A stretch of DNA of 64,000 nt from Thermothelomyces thermophilus ATCC 42464 (lineage: Eukaryota; Ascomycota; Sordariomycetes; Sordariales; Chaetomiaceae), in the NCBI RefSeq assembly GCF_000226095.1, contig NC_016474.1:1612001-1676000 (forward strand), read 5' to 3'. Position 1 is the first letter of the stretch. Each line of letters opens with the position of its first letter. Under the pieces are notes generated by a model. It saw only the letters and a program-made list of their open reading frames with translations, had not been told where the DNA came from and did not search any database. This document shows, in pieces, positions 57,053 through 64,000 of this stretch. A program made the position numbers and the translations under genes.

Positions 57053-58997
57053 TTACTGTACGGGCGGCAGCGAGGGGTAGTTGACGCGGTCGCGGCTGCG
57101 GTCGACCAGAGCGGGGTCGATGCGGCTGTTATCAACGCGGCCATCGTCGGAGTCCGAGTCGTAGTCGTGACGCTCGAGGCGCTGGCGGACGTAGTTGCGC
57201 AGGAACTCGACAGCACGCACATTATGCAGCCACTCGTCATAGGTCTCATTGTCGCCGCCTTCCGACCCCTCGGACGGCGAGCTCACGGCAGCGCCATCAA
57301 GCGCCTTGGGGGTGGGCGTTTGGTTGCCGTCGCGGCGCGCACCGCTGGGGCTCTGGAGCATGCCGCCCGAGAGACGGCGCTGCTCGTTGTGGGCGAAGGT
57401 CGAGCCGAGACCGGCCGAGGACGGGTACGGCAGGTTCGGGCGGCTGGGGAGGCTCGGGTACGAGACCGAGGTCGAGCTGTGGCGCGACGACGGCGACATG
57501 CCGGCCGACGAGGCGGTAGGCGAGTGGCCAGACGTGTACGACAAGGTGCTTGAGGGCGGGGTGACGGCCGGAGTGCCGCCGTCCGAGTGGGTCGGCGCGC
57601 TGACCGGAGACATGACCTGGGCGGCCGAAACGGCGTACCCGTCGACGGCCGGGCGAGAAGAGTAGGCGGGCGAGTGGCGCATGTCAACAGGCGCGTACTG
57701 GGTGTTGGGAGAGCCCGAGTTGTCGTAGATTGTCGCCTGCATCTGCTCCAGCATGTGGTCGATCTGCTGAAGGTCCTCCTTGGTGCGAAGATTGGGCATC
57801 GGCGGCAGATAATAGTGCTGGGTGAGCGGACCGTGCGAGACACCACCGACGCCGCCCAGAGTGTGGGGAGCCTGCGGCATGTACTCGGCAGCCAGACCGC
57901 CACCGGCGTGCAGGCCGAGGGTGGCATGGAGAGGCATCAGAGAGCGGCCGATCTGGGAATACGAGCGGGGGTCGATCTGTGCGCGCTTAATGCTACCGAA
58001 GAACTCGTTCAGGGTCTCAAAGTCGGGCTTCCGGGCCTCGTTGAAGCGTTGGGGCTGGTGGCCCATGTAGTCGGTGCGAGGGCCGCCCATGGGATGCGAA
58101 TAGTACATGGGGGTGTGATACGTCGGCTGGGGGGGCGGCTGCTGCTGGCCGTAGTAGCTAGGCTGACCATTCTGGTGCGGGTGGCCAAAGTGGCCCGTGT
58201 TAGTAGCGCGCATATGGCCATTGTGATCATAGAAGCCGGAGGGAGCTGGAGGGGGCATTAGCCTCGGGTCTCCAAGAGGCGCAGCGGTGGCCGGCAGCGC
58301 AAATCGAGGTCAGATAGATACATACGCTTGTTGCCCGGGTGGGGGCGGTAGCCTGGGTTCATGCCGCCAGGCTGGTCCTGGGGGCCACGACCGGCGACAA
58401 GCACCGAGTCGTCGGCATGCGTCTTGACGTGCTTCTTGAGGTCCTGGGGCCGCTTAAACGACTTGCCACAAAAGTCGCATTTATGCGGCTTCAGAGGCAC
58501 GTGGACACGGATGTGGGAAGTGATGTGGTCGCGCTTGACCGTCGTGGTGCGGCACTGGTTCCATTTGCAGGTCAAGTTGAGATTGTTGGTGCTCTTGCGG
58601 CCGACATGCCTCTCGCAGATGTGTTCCTGGAAGGTGGTTAGCAAATGGCGTTCTTGTTCAATTTTTTTTATGTTTTCTGAATAAAAATTTATGAATCGGT
58701 TCAACTTACATAGAGAGCCTCGGGAGTCTGACACACTTCCTTGCAGCCCTCCCAGTGGCAAGGGAAGGTGTCATTCTGGCCGCTGCTGGAGGACGCGCTC
58801 CCGGCCGCCCCAGTCGAGGGCGCCGGAGTGTTGTCGGTTGAAGCGGGATTCGAAGTCGCCGAGGCTGGAGCTGCCGCAGCCGGAGCCGGAGCCGGAGCCG
58901 GAGCCGTGGCGTCATTGTTGTTATTGTTATTGTTGTTGTTGCTGCTGTTGTCCTCCTGGGCAGGAGGAGCCTGCGTGGGCTGTGGGATTGCCGACAT
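57053..58997 (-). CDS. pacC: PacC/Rim101 pH-response transcription factor
   Basis: Three exons: 58710-58997, 58326-58626 and 57053-58269, giving 601 residues. Three C2H2 fingers lie at about residues 80-103 (CHWEGC, split by the first intron), 116-138 (CKWNQC...HITSHIRVH) and 146-166 ([21 protein letters not shown]), the arrangement that recognises GCCARG. The signalling-protease box, cut by calpain-like PalB at alkaline pH, is visible as [14 protein letters not shown] at about residues 467-480. The C-terminal negative-acting part includes [34 protein letters not shown]. An Asn run and Ala-Pro repeats precede the fingers. The protein activates alkaline-expressed and represses acid-expressed genes after two-step proteolysis. 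The second intron acceptor is TTGGAG at 58270, the only in-frame choice. The TAA stop sits inside an ACAGTAAGTAAAT sequence that would be a strong donor. The upstream DNA is packed with GCCARG sites. Confidence 0.96.
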
Positions 58998-59236
58998 GGC
59001 TCGTGCGCGGTCGCTTAATGCTTGGCAAGTCTTCCTCCTCGCTTTGGTGATGGCCAAGTTCGGAGTTGAACGGTTTCCGTTCCGAAAAATCACGTGGGTT
59101 GTGGGTTGTGGGTTTTAAATCAGGCCGGCCGAGCACTAATCACCTGACTTGAAGGCTCCGAATCGAGAGCGAGCCCTAGGTGCCCCACTCTTTACCAAGA
59201 ATGCCCAGAGTTGGAGCGACTGCTTGCGGCAGGCGT

Positions 59237-60173
59237 GCCAAGGCCAAGAGAGCGTGCCGGTGCAGCACTGGAGCAAGAGAATGCCAAGGACGGCCAAGGA
59301 TCGGGACGAAACAGAATGCACAAAAAATAAAACCGCCTCGACTCGTGAGTGCAAGTTGGCGTCTTTTTCTTTGCGCGCTTCCTCTGGTGATGCAAAGGAG
59401 AAAATCGATCAACGATTGACTTCACCAGAACAGCGGGCCATTCTGTCTTTATTACGCCTTCTTTCTCATGGCAGTAACATTGGCGGAGGCCTTGGCATCC
59501 TCTTGGCAGTCTGGGCCATTCGTGCCAGGCGTGTCTCATTGGGCCACAAAGCCCTCCACGGGCCGCCCAAAGTATCTTCTGATGCCAGGTGGCGACGGCA
59601 GCACGCAAGCACGGGCCGCAACGTGCCAGTGGCTGTCTTGACCCTAACAGTACTACATGGCCGCCAAGCTGCGCCAAGATCCGCCAAGTCATCGCCAAGG
59701 CTTGGCATTTGCAGGTATGGGCTTGGCAGCGCTCATTCCCCCCCACCGCTCTTGCCCCATGGTCACACGCTTTGCCCAGACTGCCCAGAAATGCCCAGGC
59801 CGTCATGCGGTCCCTCGCTCACGCGCCTGCACCTGTGCTTGTCCTCGGCCCAGCTGTGGGCTTGGCTCTTACTGAGATATCCCGTCTGGTTCCGATCGAT
59901 TCTTTCCTGAACAGAATTTTCTGCAGGTCTTGCAGGTCTTGCAGGTCTTGTCCTGGGGGACCAAGCTGGCGCAGCCAAGTAATGTCTTGTTTCGTTCTAG
60001 GTCGGGTATGAGCAGCCATTGCCAAGCCTGCCCCCGATCAAGCATGCCCTCGGCTCGACCCTGACGCGCTCACCTCAATTCCGCGTGTGAGGCTCCCCGT
60101 TCCCGCAGCCTGATGCCAAGCTTTGCCCGCCCTGGCCAAGAGATCACCCTCCGCTCTGGGCCAAGCTCTTGGC
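59237..60173. promoter_or_regulatory. Dense cluster of 22 PacC recognition hexamers upstream of pacC
   Basis: Read by eye on both strands. GCCAAG starts at 59237, 59243, 59283, 59293, 59663, 59673, 59683, 59694, 59974, 60021, 60115, 60135 and 60160. CTTGGC starts at 59491, 59502, 59701, 59722, 59861 and 60168. GCCAGG starts at 59524 and 59584, and CCTGGC at 60131. Uniform base composition would give about one in this length. The four at 59663-59699 are spaced 10, 10 and 11 bases, one helical turn. The first lies 240 bases upstream of the pacC ATG. Binding is inferred from the known GCCARG specificity of PacC. Confidence 0.7.
59923..59949. repeat. Triple tandem repeat of GCAGGTCTT
   Basis: Three perfect 9-base units back to back, within the pacC upstream region. 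Confidence 0.9.
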
Positions 60174-61035
60174 GACCCGTCTCCTCCGACGTCCGTTATC
60201 ACTCCGACGAATACCGTCAGCTCGGGTCCAGCACAGCCCCTTTTCGCTTGGGACGCTCATTTCAGCAAAACGGCTGAGACCAATCTGGCCCGGAAAACCA
60301 TGACCGTTTGGCTTCCACTCGGCTGCGACGAAGGCGACGAGTCATGATACATACTAGTTATACACAGTAGAGCCTTCCATCTGGCGTCGCGTGACACTGG
60401 TGTGCCTCACCATTTCTAGCAAGTGGCGGCAGGTACGGAGCAGGTTATGCCCATAAGCTACCGAGCTGCCGTCACCTGCCGGTGTACAGTATTGAACGTA
60501 CGGAGTAGCTCCTGGTTGTTCGCTCGCTTGCCACGATCATGGACCGACTTAACTATTCCTTTAGTCATTGATCATCATCGGCGAGCACAGAAACCGTGCC
60601 CCTCAACCGCAGGTTCCGCCACGACATGAGATGGAGCCAAGCATCCGACCCCCACCATTGAGCCCCTCCATGTGGCCCACCAGTCGCACAACATTCCTTG
60701 CCAAGCGCCATAAAAACGTGAAGATCCTGGAAGCGCTCTTCCCGACGTACCCGTAATAAAAATAGTGTACGGAATAACTGCAGAATGCGCTTGACGGAAG
60801 CATGCCGAAGCTTGAGGCGATCCTCGATGATCTTGGTGGCAAATGTCCCGTCCCGATTGCTTTTTCCCCGAGCTCCGCTCGATGAATTACACATGTACTG
60901 TACGGAACTAAACGATACGCGATGGGGTGGTGAAAACTACATCCCGTGTGTAGTATGCTGCGGGCAAACACTCCGTTTCTCCATTTTTGGCTCGGGGGCC
61001 ATTTCACCAGTAATCAACCACACTCCCGTCCGAAT

Positions 61036-61133
61036 CTTGGCAACCTCTTATCCTTCTTGGCCGTTCTTGGCCCCGTCTTGGTCTTCTCTTGGCGAGCGCT
61101 CTGGATCAAGAAGCTTACCCCAGGTTTCTTGGC
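61036..61133. promoter_or_regulatory. Second phased array of CTTGGC hexamers, distal pacC upstream region
   Basis: CTTGGC starts at 61036, 61056, 61066, 61088 and 61128, with a one-mismatch CTTGGT at 61077. The run 61056, 61066, 61077, 61088 is spaced 10, 11 and 11 bases. All are in the same orientation. The array lies about 2 kb from the pacC ATG and only 0.8 kb past the SEA4 stop. Confidence 0.6.
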
Positions 61134-61916
61134 CCTTAGCCTTCCGCCGTCGTGTTCGCCGCCGATGCAGAGAAGACAGTGTGAAACAAGCGATCGAAAC
61201 TGGAACCCTCTCATTTCCGTACCAAGGACGGAGCATGGGAATCGTCCGAGACGTCCTTCCAAGTCCCAAGAGCGCGGAAACGCCTTGGCAGGGTGACGAG
61301 CGCACTTTGTCGCTCTGTCGTCATTGTTCCTGTCGGTTTTGCACGGAGATCACCAAAAGCAGAAGAGAATCCGAACCGAACATTTGGAGATGTGCACTAC
61401 GGAGTAATCCGTGCAAGTAGAACCTTGGCTTAATGAACTTCTTTAATCATCAACACTTTTGCCCCCCCCCCCCCTCTCACCAAAAAAAAACCCTTTTCGC
61501 TCCTTGTTGTTTCCCATACTAGCAACATGTCTCCTCTCCTCCTTACGACCTCTTGGCCGTGTACGGAGCATGTATGTACCGGACATATTTTATGAAAGTC
61601 ATCGCCCAACCAACCACTCCATCCATAGTAGTCATTCGACCGTATTATGCAGAGCATTCGAGACACCACGGCCATGTTTTGAGGTAGGTAGCAAATCCCG
61701 GAAAATTAAAAAAATAAATAAATAAAAATATAAAAATATAAAATATAAAGACTCAGCACCATGCTCCCTTCCACGACCCCTCCACCCCCCCCCGGGTCTT
61801 TTGAGTCCTCAAAACGCCCATTAAATACTCAAGCAACCTAGCGAAATCAAATCAGTCATTCCATACCGTCTCTCCCCGCGCCCCCCCCCTTTCTCCTCCT
61901 ACTCACCCTCGCGGCT

Positions 61917-64000
61917 CTAGGAATACTCCAGCTCCTCATTGACCCTCGTATTGCAAAGGCACCTGCACTCGGGCACCGGGCACTCGCGGTGGCGCGCGAA
62001 CCACTGGCGGGCGTGGTCGAGGTGGAGGACGTGGCCGCAGGCGACGCAAAAGGTGGGGAAGCGGGCGGTGCGGCGCACGTCCGGGTCGGCGTTCTGCTCC
62101 GGCCGGTCGCTGCGGGGCATGCCGACGACCTCGAGGCAGACGACGCAGCGGGGGAGGTGCTGCTTGCAGTTGGGGCAGCTGATCCCGCTGGCCACCATCT
62201 TCTCCGTGTAGGGGTTGGCCTGCTGCCGGCTGGCGCGGGCCTCGGTGCGCGACGTGGAAGTCGTGGAGGAGGGGGTCGCGGCGGCGGCGGCGGCGGCGGC
62301 GGCGGTCATGAAGCTCGGGATGCCGCTGCTGCCGGTCCGGGAGCCTGGGCCGGTCGCACTCCGTGGGGCCAGCGACTCGGTCTTGAACTCGACATCGCAG
62401 TAGACGCAGCGCAGGCCGATCTGGCGTGCGGGCAGGGGCAGGGTCGGGCGGCCGTGGTGTTTGCTGCGCAAGGTGGACTCGACGTCGAACTTTGCGCGGA
62501 AGAAGAAGGCGCGGTGGCGCTGGAGGTAGTGGCGGTAGGCGTTCCGTATGGCGGTGGCGCGGATGTCGTCGATGAAGCGGGGGGCGCAGATGGAGAGAAG
62601 GAGGGCGGCGGTTTGGGTGTCGTTGAACTTGTGTACGTAGCGGGCCAGGATGTCGACGAGGGAGTCGGTTATTCCGGTGAGGACGATGCCTTCGATGTTG
62701 CCGGTCTCGATGGCAGCGGCCAGCTCGTCCTCGAGCCACGCGGTGAGGGCGTCGTCGCTAAAGTAGCGGACGGCGACGTAACAGCGGTCGCGGAGAGGCA
62801 GGGTTTTCTGACCGGCGATCACGGCCCAGTCGCCGGTCGCAATGATGGCGGATATTGCGCGCAGGTAAGGGTCCGTCTTGCAGGCTACCCTCTCGTCAAA
62901 ATCGAGAGCCGTCTTGGTGTCATCATCCCCGCCCTTCCCGATCAGTTGGAGCGCCAGCGAGACAAAAAGCAACTCTGGGTGTTCAGAGCTGGCCCTTTTC
63001 AGCACCTGAACCGCGCCGTTTGTGTCGCCCCTGAATAGGGCCTGAGCGGCGACCATGGTGTACCACGTCGACTCTCTCCCGGGAGCCGATGTCGACACTG
63101 CGCGCTCGAACTCTATGTCGAACGAGCGGCCAAAGCTGCAGATTTCGAGGCACAGCTCCCTGTGGTGGCGGCGCTTGGTTTCGACTGCTCCGCCGACCTT
63201 GGGGATTCCAAGCTTCTTGTTGATCGCGTTCAGGCAACGCTCCCAGCCGGCTTCATCAGGGGGTGGAGCGTCGTCCGACAACCTCATCTGAGGCTTGCTT
63301 CCTATCGAACTTGTGAGAAAAGGCTCGAATGAGAGCGAGGGGGTGTGACTGCGCACCAAGGTTATTCGTCCAGACTGTGTGGACTCCCATGTAGCTGATG
63401 TCTAGGGGATCGGACATCATCCCACCGTCGGCGGCTGCTGTCTCGGCACCTTGGTCGAGGCAATGAGCAACGGGACCGTACAGCAAATAATAACATGCTG
63501 CTCCACTCACCAGCGACCCAGGCCCATACATCTGTCAACCACGGATCGTCGGCCACAATCTTCTGATTCTTGACAGGGTCGAAACGGTAACCCTCCTGCG
63601 CGCGGAGAAGCATAGCGTTGTCGAGGACAAACTGCTCTTTACTCGAGAGGTTTGCCATGTCTCTGGTGTCAGTAAGCAGCTTCTCGTGTCGCTCAAGCTG
63701 CGACAAGAGCATATCATCTGGCTGCTCTTTGCCTTGTTTCGCCGCCAGCCTCAGCGCCTTGAGCTGGTCGGCAATCGACGATGCGCCGTCAAATAGCAGG
63801 GAAGAATCGTTCGCTTCCTCCGAGAGCAAACGGCGATCAGGTAATCCGCTGGTAAGGCTCCTCTCCACCAGCTCCTTGATGTTGGCCTTCTGTGGCCCAA
63901 ACAGTGGTACATCGGCCAGGGCCTGCTCGGTCAGAAAAGGACCGTAAATCTCGCGCGCTTGCGTCGGCTCGAACTGCATAAGCTCCCGATAGTTCGTCCC
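61917..64000 (-). CDS. SEA4: Sea4/Mio subunit of the SEACAT/GATOR2 complex (5' end outside window)
   Basis: Three exons are in the window: 63511 to beyond 64000, 63357-63449 and 61917-63301; the frame is open at the right edge, so the N-terminal WD40 propeller lies outside. Typical Mio features are present: a helical middle (ERCLNAINKKLGIPKVGG; QALFRGDTNGAVQVLKRAS), then a C-terminal zinc region. That region contains CVYCDVEF, GISCPNCKQHLPRCVVCLEVVG and CVACGHVLHLDHARQWFARHRECPVPECRC, a RING/zinc-ribbon arrangement. The complex restrains the Npr2-Npr3-Iml1 GAP and so promotes TORC1 activity at the vacuole. An alanine run (62281-62310, GCG/GCC repeat) lies in the loop between the zinc elements. 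The first visible intron joins WVAG to AETAAADGGMM, and the second, 55 bases, joins TNNL to GSKPQ. Confidence 0.93.

Follow-up and report, generated by a model that had tools for sequence, protein, structure and literature searches.

Genes and sites upstream of pacC

The window analysed here is a stretch of 64,000 nucleotides from contig NC_016474.1 of Thermothelomyces thermophilus ATCC 42464, and its features around the array of GCCARG sites are collected in Table 1. The gene below the array is read on the reverse strand from a start codon assigned by eye at 58997-58995. An open reading frame at 58258-58761 matches the C2H2 zinc finger (zf-C2H2) with 27.7 bits against a cut-off of 25.2, and we take its finger sequence to be of the PacC type. 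Two YPSL motifs, both of the YPxL/I form, are located at residues 267 and 394 of the reading frame 57053-58258; two such motifs are what PacC requires for the binding of PalA, according to the cited passage of PMC4832277. Because the finger match lies above its cut-off and both YPSL motifs are present, we identify the gene as pacC. The next gene is arranged in tandem with it and bounds the region with its 3' end, so that its own promoter does not fall within the array and there is no divergent promoter of that gene at this place.

Table 1. Position of genes and site groups in the window
Feature	Position	Strand	Details
pacC, remainder of the gene	57053..58626	-	match to the C2H2 finger; YPSL motif present twice; may include further introns
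pacC, putative exon 1 from the ATG	58710..58997	-	intron border by eye
Whole pacC upstream region	59000..61916	both	34 GCCARG, 31 of them GCCAAG, from 59021 to 61552
Dense core	59237..60173	15 on +, 7 on -	22 GCCARG/CYTGGC: 19 GCCAAG, 3 GCCAGG
GCCAAG pair	59283..59298	+	spacing 10
CTTGGC pair	59491..59507	-	spacing 11
GCCAAG, four sites	59663..59699	+	spacing 10, 10, 11; TRF: 10-base unit, 2.8 copies
GCCCAG, three sites (59774, 59783, 59793)	59774..59798	+	spacing 9 and 10
CTTGGC pair outside 59237-60173	61056..61071	-	spacing 10
Upstream neighbour	61917..63359	-	zinc_ribbon_16 above cut-off; RING_16 and MIOS alpha-solenoid just below theirs

The 34 sites are spread over the 2.9 kb that separate the start codon of pacC from the 3' end of its neighbour, 18 of them within a single kilobase (59000-59999). 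Two sites (59021 and 59053) are closer to the ATG than the dense core and ten lie past 60173; the eight found in 61000-61916 all read CTTGGC. The initial annotation had described 22 hexamers in 937 bases, beginning 240 bases from the pacC ATG, with several neighbours 10 or 11 bases apart. On recount the number and the coordinates were exact, the distance agrees with the position of the ATG, and every named neighbour was found together with the further pair at 61056/61066.

Adjacent sites tend to have the same orientation (11 runs vs. 18 expected, p 0.01). Across the 34 sites the flanks have no common sequence past the hexamer, which indicates that it is the hexamer itself that recurs and not a longer repeat. 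A longer repeat or transposon at the array was rejected because TRF finds only short tandems and the flanks differ. A coding repeat was also rejected, as the sites fall in three frames and on two strands and the four open reading frames tested have no Pfam match (E 0.1). Within the array, positions 59922-59950 carry TGCAGGTCT in three tandem copies.

Site density in the array and in the genome

The genome of 38.74 Mb in 7 contigs contains 31,277 copies of GCCAAG (15,800 forward and 15,477 reverse), corresponding to 0.81 per kb. At this rate 0.76 copies would be expected in the core, where 19 are found; this is a local surplus of the kind expected of a homotypic cluster. GCCAAG is also the most over-represented hexamer of the core (0.8-1.0 expected), the next two words being ones that overlap it; p for GCCAAG is about 1e-18 when the remainder of the window serves as the reference and 4e-20 when the genome sample does. 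For the degenerate word GCCARG, Markov models (orders 1-4) trained on the window predict 1.4-1.9 occurrences per 937 bases. A background sample of 200 kb, composed of 20 spread 10-kb pieces from contigs C1-C3 and read in 3,640 overlapping windows of 937 bases, gave a mean of 1.46. The initial annotation's expectation of about one was thus near the mark, and the rarity of such a density elsewhere, which it had named as a point to be checked, was borne out: the richest of the sampled windows contains 6 sites, compared to 22 here. Models fitted to the core itself predict 3.0, 5.7, 13.7 and 19.1 sites for orders 1 to 4. The last two of these orders have learned the word GCCARG itself, and orders 1 and 2 reach maxima of 10 and 13 among 400. 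The cluster of GCCARG is not due to chance.

The same picture emerges from tight same-strand triplets of GCCAAG. There are 57 in the whole genome, five of which lie within 1.5 kb at this locus; according to the full genome list, any other neighbourhood of 1.5 kb contains at most two. Five further clusters chosen from the triplet lists (L041-L045) hold 5-9 GCCARG per 937 bases, and the count at an ATPase locus (L037) peaks at 8.

Could local micro-duplication have multiplied the hexamer by drift, leaving an array with no function? Two 10-base tandems were detected by TRF, with 2.8 copies at 59661-59688 and 1.9 copies at 61054-61072. In the core, words with one mismatch to GCCAAG are raised when pooled (24 vs. 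11.1, p 0.0005), and some sites could stem from duplication. On the other hand, the sites extend over 2.5 kb in two orientations with unlike flanks, and across the whole region the words one mismatch away stay close to background (44 vs. 34.5, p 0.07), whereas GCCAAG itself is up about 12-fold. We therefore consider duplication without function a very improbable origin of the array.

Among the single one-mismatch words, GCCCAG shows the largest rise, with 6 copies in the core where 0.7 are expected. It agrees with BGCCVAGV, the preference given for PAC-3 of Neurospora crassa in the cited part of PMC4996508. The agreement with this preference does not extend to all words: GCAAAG, which falls outside it, is raised in the core as well (4 vs. 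0.6), and GCCGAG, which it permits, shows no surplus there (4 vs. 3.7). The flank rule contained in BGCCVAGV is followed by 25 of the 31 GCCAAG sites, not significantly more than the background of 69% (p 0.11).

We compared the array with the upstream stretches of other genes linked to PacC. In the 1.5 kb upstream of palH there is 1 GCCARG, and upstream of two genes with BRO1 domains there are 4 and 1, each vs. about 2.4 expected; dense arrays are therefore not seen at these pathway genes, the check covering palH and two of three BRO1 matches, the third of which falls below cut-off. In N. crassa, by contrast, PAC-3 binds pal promoters, as the cited passage of PMC4996508 states, whereas the Pal-type regions considered here have no clear enrichment. 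Three genes of the ENA type, out of 13 ATPase stretches, hold 17 GCCAAG in 7.5 kb of upstream sequence that may be partly coding, compared to 6.05 expected (p 0.0002). The individual stretches of 2.5 kb contribute 9, 5 and 3 sites (p 0.0003, 0.05 and 0.33). The richest of them (L039, C5:4113501-4116000) lies upstream of a match to an ENA-type cation ATPase, with 2.0 sites expected, and judged by its site content this gene is a likely target of PacC. Density of GCCAAG thus marks one expected class of targets moderately and pacC extremely.

Spacing by one helical turn

The initial annotation had further proposed that the sites lie on one face of the DNA and form a phased array. Six of the 33 gaps between neighbouring sites measure 10 or 11 bases, compared to 0.7 under uniform placing, where none of 5000 trials reaches six, and to 1.2-1.5 under three jitter nulls (p 0.0002-0.002). 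Three of these six come from the single four-site block that TRF reports as a 10-base tandem. When the block is counted once, three gaps are left, with p 0.02 under uniform placing and 0.05-0.06 under jitter. The other 27 of the 33 gaps are not one turn long, and the 10.5-base periodicity over all pairs in the array is weak (p 0.02-0.06). The placement on one face is accordingly limited to such runs. Phasing of the array fared similarly: it has the six gaps and a genome-wide surplus in its favour, and against it the local p values once the block is counted a single time.

The genome-wide surplus concerns same-strand pairs of GCCAAG, of which there are 89 at spacings 10/11 (62 and 27), 27 at 13/14 and 27 at 16/17. 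For the control, the word read backward, the corresponding numbers are 11, 15 and 8. As every one of these spacings is indivisible by three, no set gains from codon phase. For GCCARG with repeats included, there are 121 pairs at spacing 10, whereas spacings 6-36 average 74 (2,293 pairs). The raw surplus at 10 bases arises in part because a dispersed repeat carries such pairs. Copies of GCCAAG-NNNN-GCCAAG in dispersed repeats (L046-L061 and L063-L065) inflate the counts at this spacing, and 19 of 20 inspected places with the spacers GTTT, AAAT, CTTT or ATTT share their flanks as judged by eye. We removed 26 repeat copies with these spacers, 19 by their flanks and 7 by the spacer alone, together with the six pairs of the present locus, and retained L062, which has unique flanks. 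This leaves 57 places at 53 loci, about twofold over the off-phase level as counted with repeats retained in the 13/14 and 16/17 sets (p 3e-6 to 4e-4 for the 53 loci). At spacings 20 and 22, again with repeats retained, there are 18 and 11 pairs genome-wide, of which 15 and 10 lie outside pacC, without surplus; the preference is thus for one turn and not for a lasting period. Eight loci with one-turn pairs were inspected for open frames: L005 lies in a frame of 536 codons, and the frames at the other seven have 83-227 codons and may or may not be coding. One-turn spacing is repeated in two of the other triplet clusters, L041 (930-967; 10, 11, 11) and L042 (962-988; 11, 10), both lying upstream of putative genes (open reading frames) by about 500 bases.

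A possible function of this spacing is a phased cooperative switch, in which PacC molecules one helical turn apart touch each other and the response becomes steep. The number of one-turn gaps in the array, the genome-wide excess of 10/11 over off-phase pairs, the 53 loci that survive removal of repeats and the recurrence of the spacing at L041 and L042 all argue for it. PacC probably binds as a monomer, which argues against it, as do the three gaps that remain after the block is merged, the predominance of gaps other than one turn, the weak periodicity and the missing surplus at 20 and 22 bases. In 259 kb of sampled sequence there is also just 1 pair at 10 and 1 at 11, too few for any peak. 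Taken together, these points leave such a switch a tentative idea that we do not favour. Its broader form, that one-turn pairs of GCCAAG are a genome-wide grammar of cooperative PacC binding, with pacC as the extreme case, where the array would set how steeply the pH switch responds, appears to us rather doubtful. Among the matches listed in the open-licence literature we found nothing on the spacing of PacC sites or on a preference for the helical turn, and we found no open-licence literature on DAP-seq with pac-3. The genome-wide surplus of one-turn pairs offers a simple test case for cooperative binding of PacC.

Regulation of pacC and comparison with known systems

We hypothesize that PacC (PAC-3/Rim101) controls its own gene through this region, which would then be a homotypic cluster of its sites, and we regard this as probable. 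The hypothesis is based on the identity of the motif, on a density far outside the range usual for the genome, on the location of the array, which pacC alone has downstream of it, and on published cases of both autoregulation and site clusters. The rise of GCCCAG and the surplus at the ENA-type genes, a partial positive control, also speak for it. Points against it are the Pal-type regions near background, the flank rule without significant agreement, the raised GCAAAG and the unraised GCCGAG, the pooled surplus of one-mismatch words in the core and the missing effect of PacC27 in A. nidulans. The autoregulation read from the sequence by the initial annotation is to this extent well supported; the phased cooperative binding that went with it is supported only in part.

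A different factor recognizing GCCAAG could bind instead, in which case the cluster would be regulatory without being autoregulatory. A motif alone cannot name its protein, and the N. crassa gene responds to heat as well, as noted in the cited passage of PMC3432076. Nonetheless, GCCARG is the established word of PacC and GCCAAG one of its two forms, the array precedes pacC itself, and the pac-3 promoter of N. crassa is occupied by PAC-3 itself in the cited account (PMC4996508). Binding by another factor is therefore improbable.

If the cluster is autoregulatory, PacC would bind many separate GCCAAG sites along about 2.5 kb of the pacC promoter, and probably the GCCCAG sites too. The high number of sites would raise the local occupancy of PacC and make transcription of pacC sensitive to the amount and the form of the protein. 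By analogy with Aspergillus nidulans, the full-length form would act as a repressor of pacC under acid conditions, a repression lifted by processing; by analogy with N. crassa, PAC-3 would occupy the promoter at alkaline pH. One-turn pairs may in addition put neighbouring molecules on the same face of the DNA, a refinement of the hypothesis that we think unlikely.

The sign of the regulation is uncertain because in A. nidulans, as far as the cited text of PMC4832277 goes, PacC72 is a repressor of pacC, whereas PacC27 leaves its transcription unaffected. In that species, too, the pacC product acts on its own gene according to pH. That account deals with the sign and with the form of the protein, whereas an array of sites is the feature of the pacC described here. 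In the pac-3 promoter of N. crassa, which belongs to the same order (Sordariales), many PAC-3 motifs are reported and ChIP-PCR detects binding at alkaline pH only (cited part of PMC4996508). Many motifs in the gene's own promoter are common to both; for N. crassa the binding comes from ChIP, while the present array is known from sequence and its density is not comparable with that report. The sign of autoregulation suggested by the passages on A. nidulans and on N. crassa differs. With about 30 candidate sites, several of them exactly one turn apart, the locus is suited for asking how the number and spacing of sites shape a pH switch.

The only published count that we found comes from Trichoderma virens, where the cited passage of PMC3618310 gives 9 GCCARG in the 1 kb upstream of pacC, compared to 1.3 per kb in random promoters and 3.1 in genes induced by PacC. 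The two pacC genes are alike in a several-fold surplus of GCCARG directly upstream, and differ in that the present array packs 18 sites into 1 kb and 34 into 2.9 kb and includes one-turn runs, spacing being a point on which the cited passage is silent. The earlier remark that no array this dense had been described is hence correct for the number of sites and not for the kind of array, since the T. virens count and the many motifs of N. crassa are published. As far as these cited sources extend, elements of this type and their use in autoregulation have been described before, and the density upstream of this pacC exceeds that of its T. virens counterpart.
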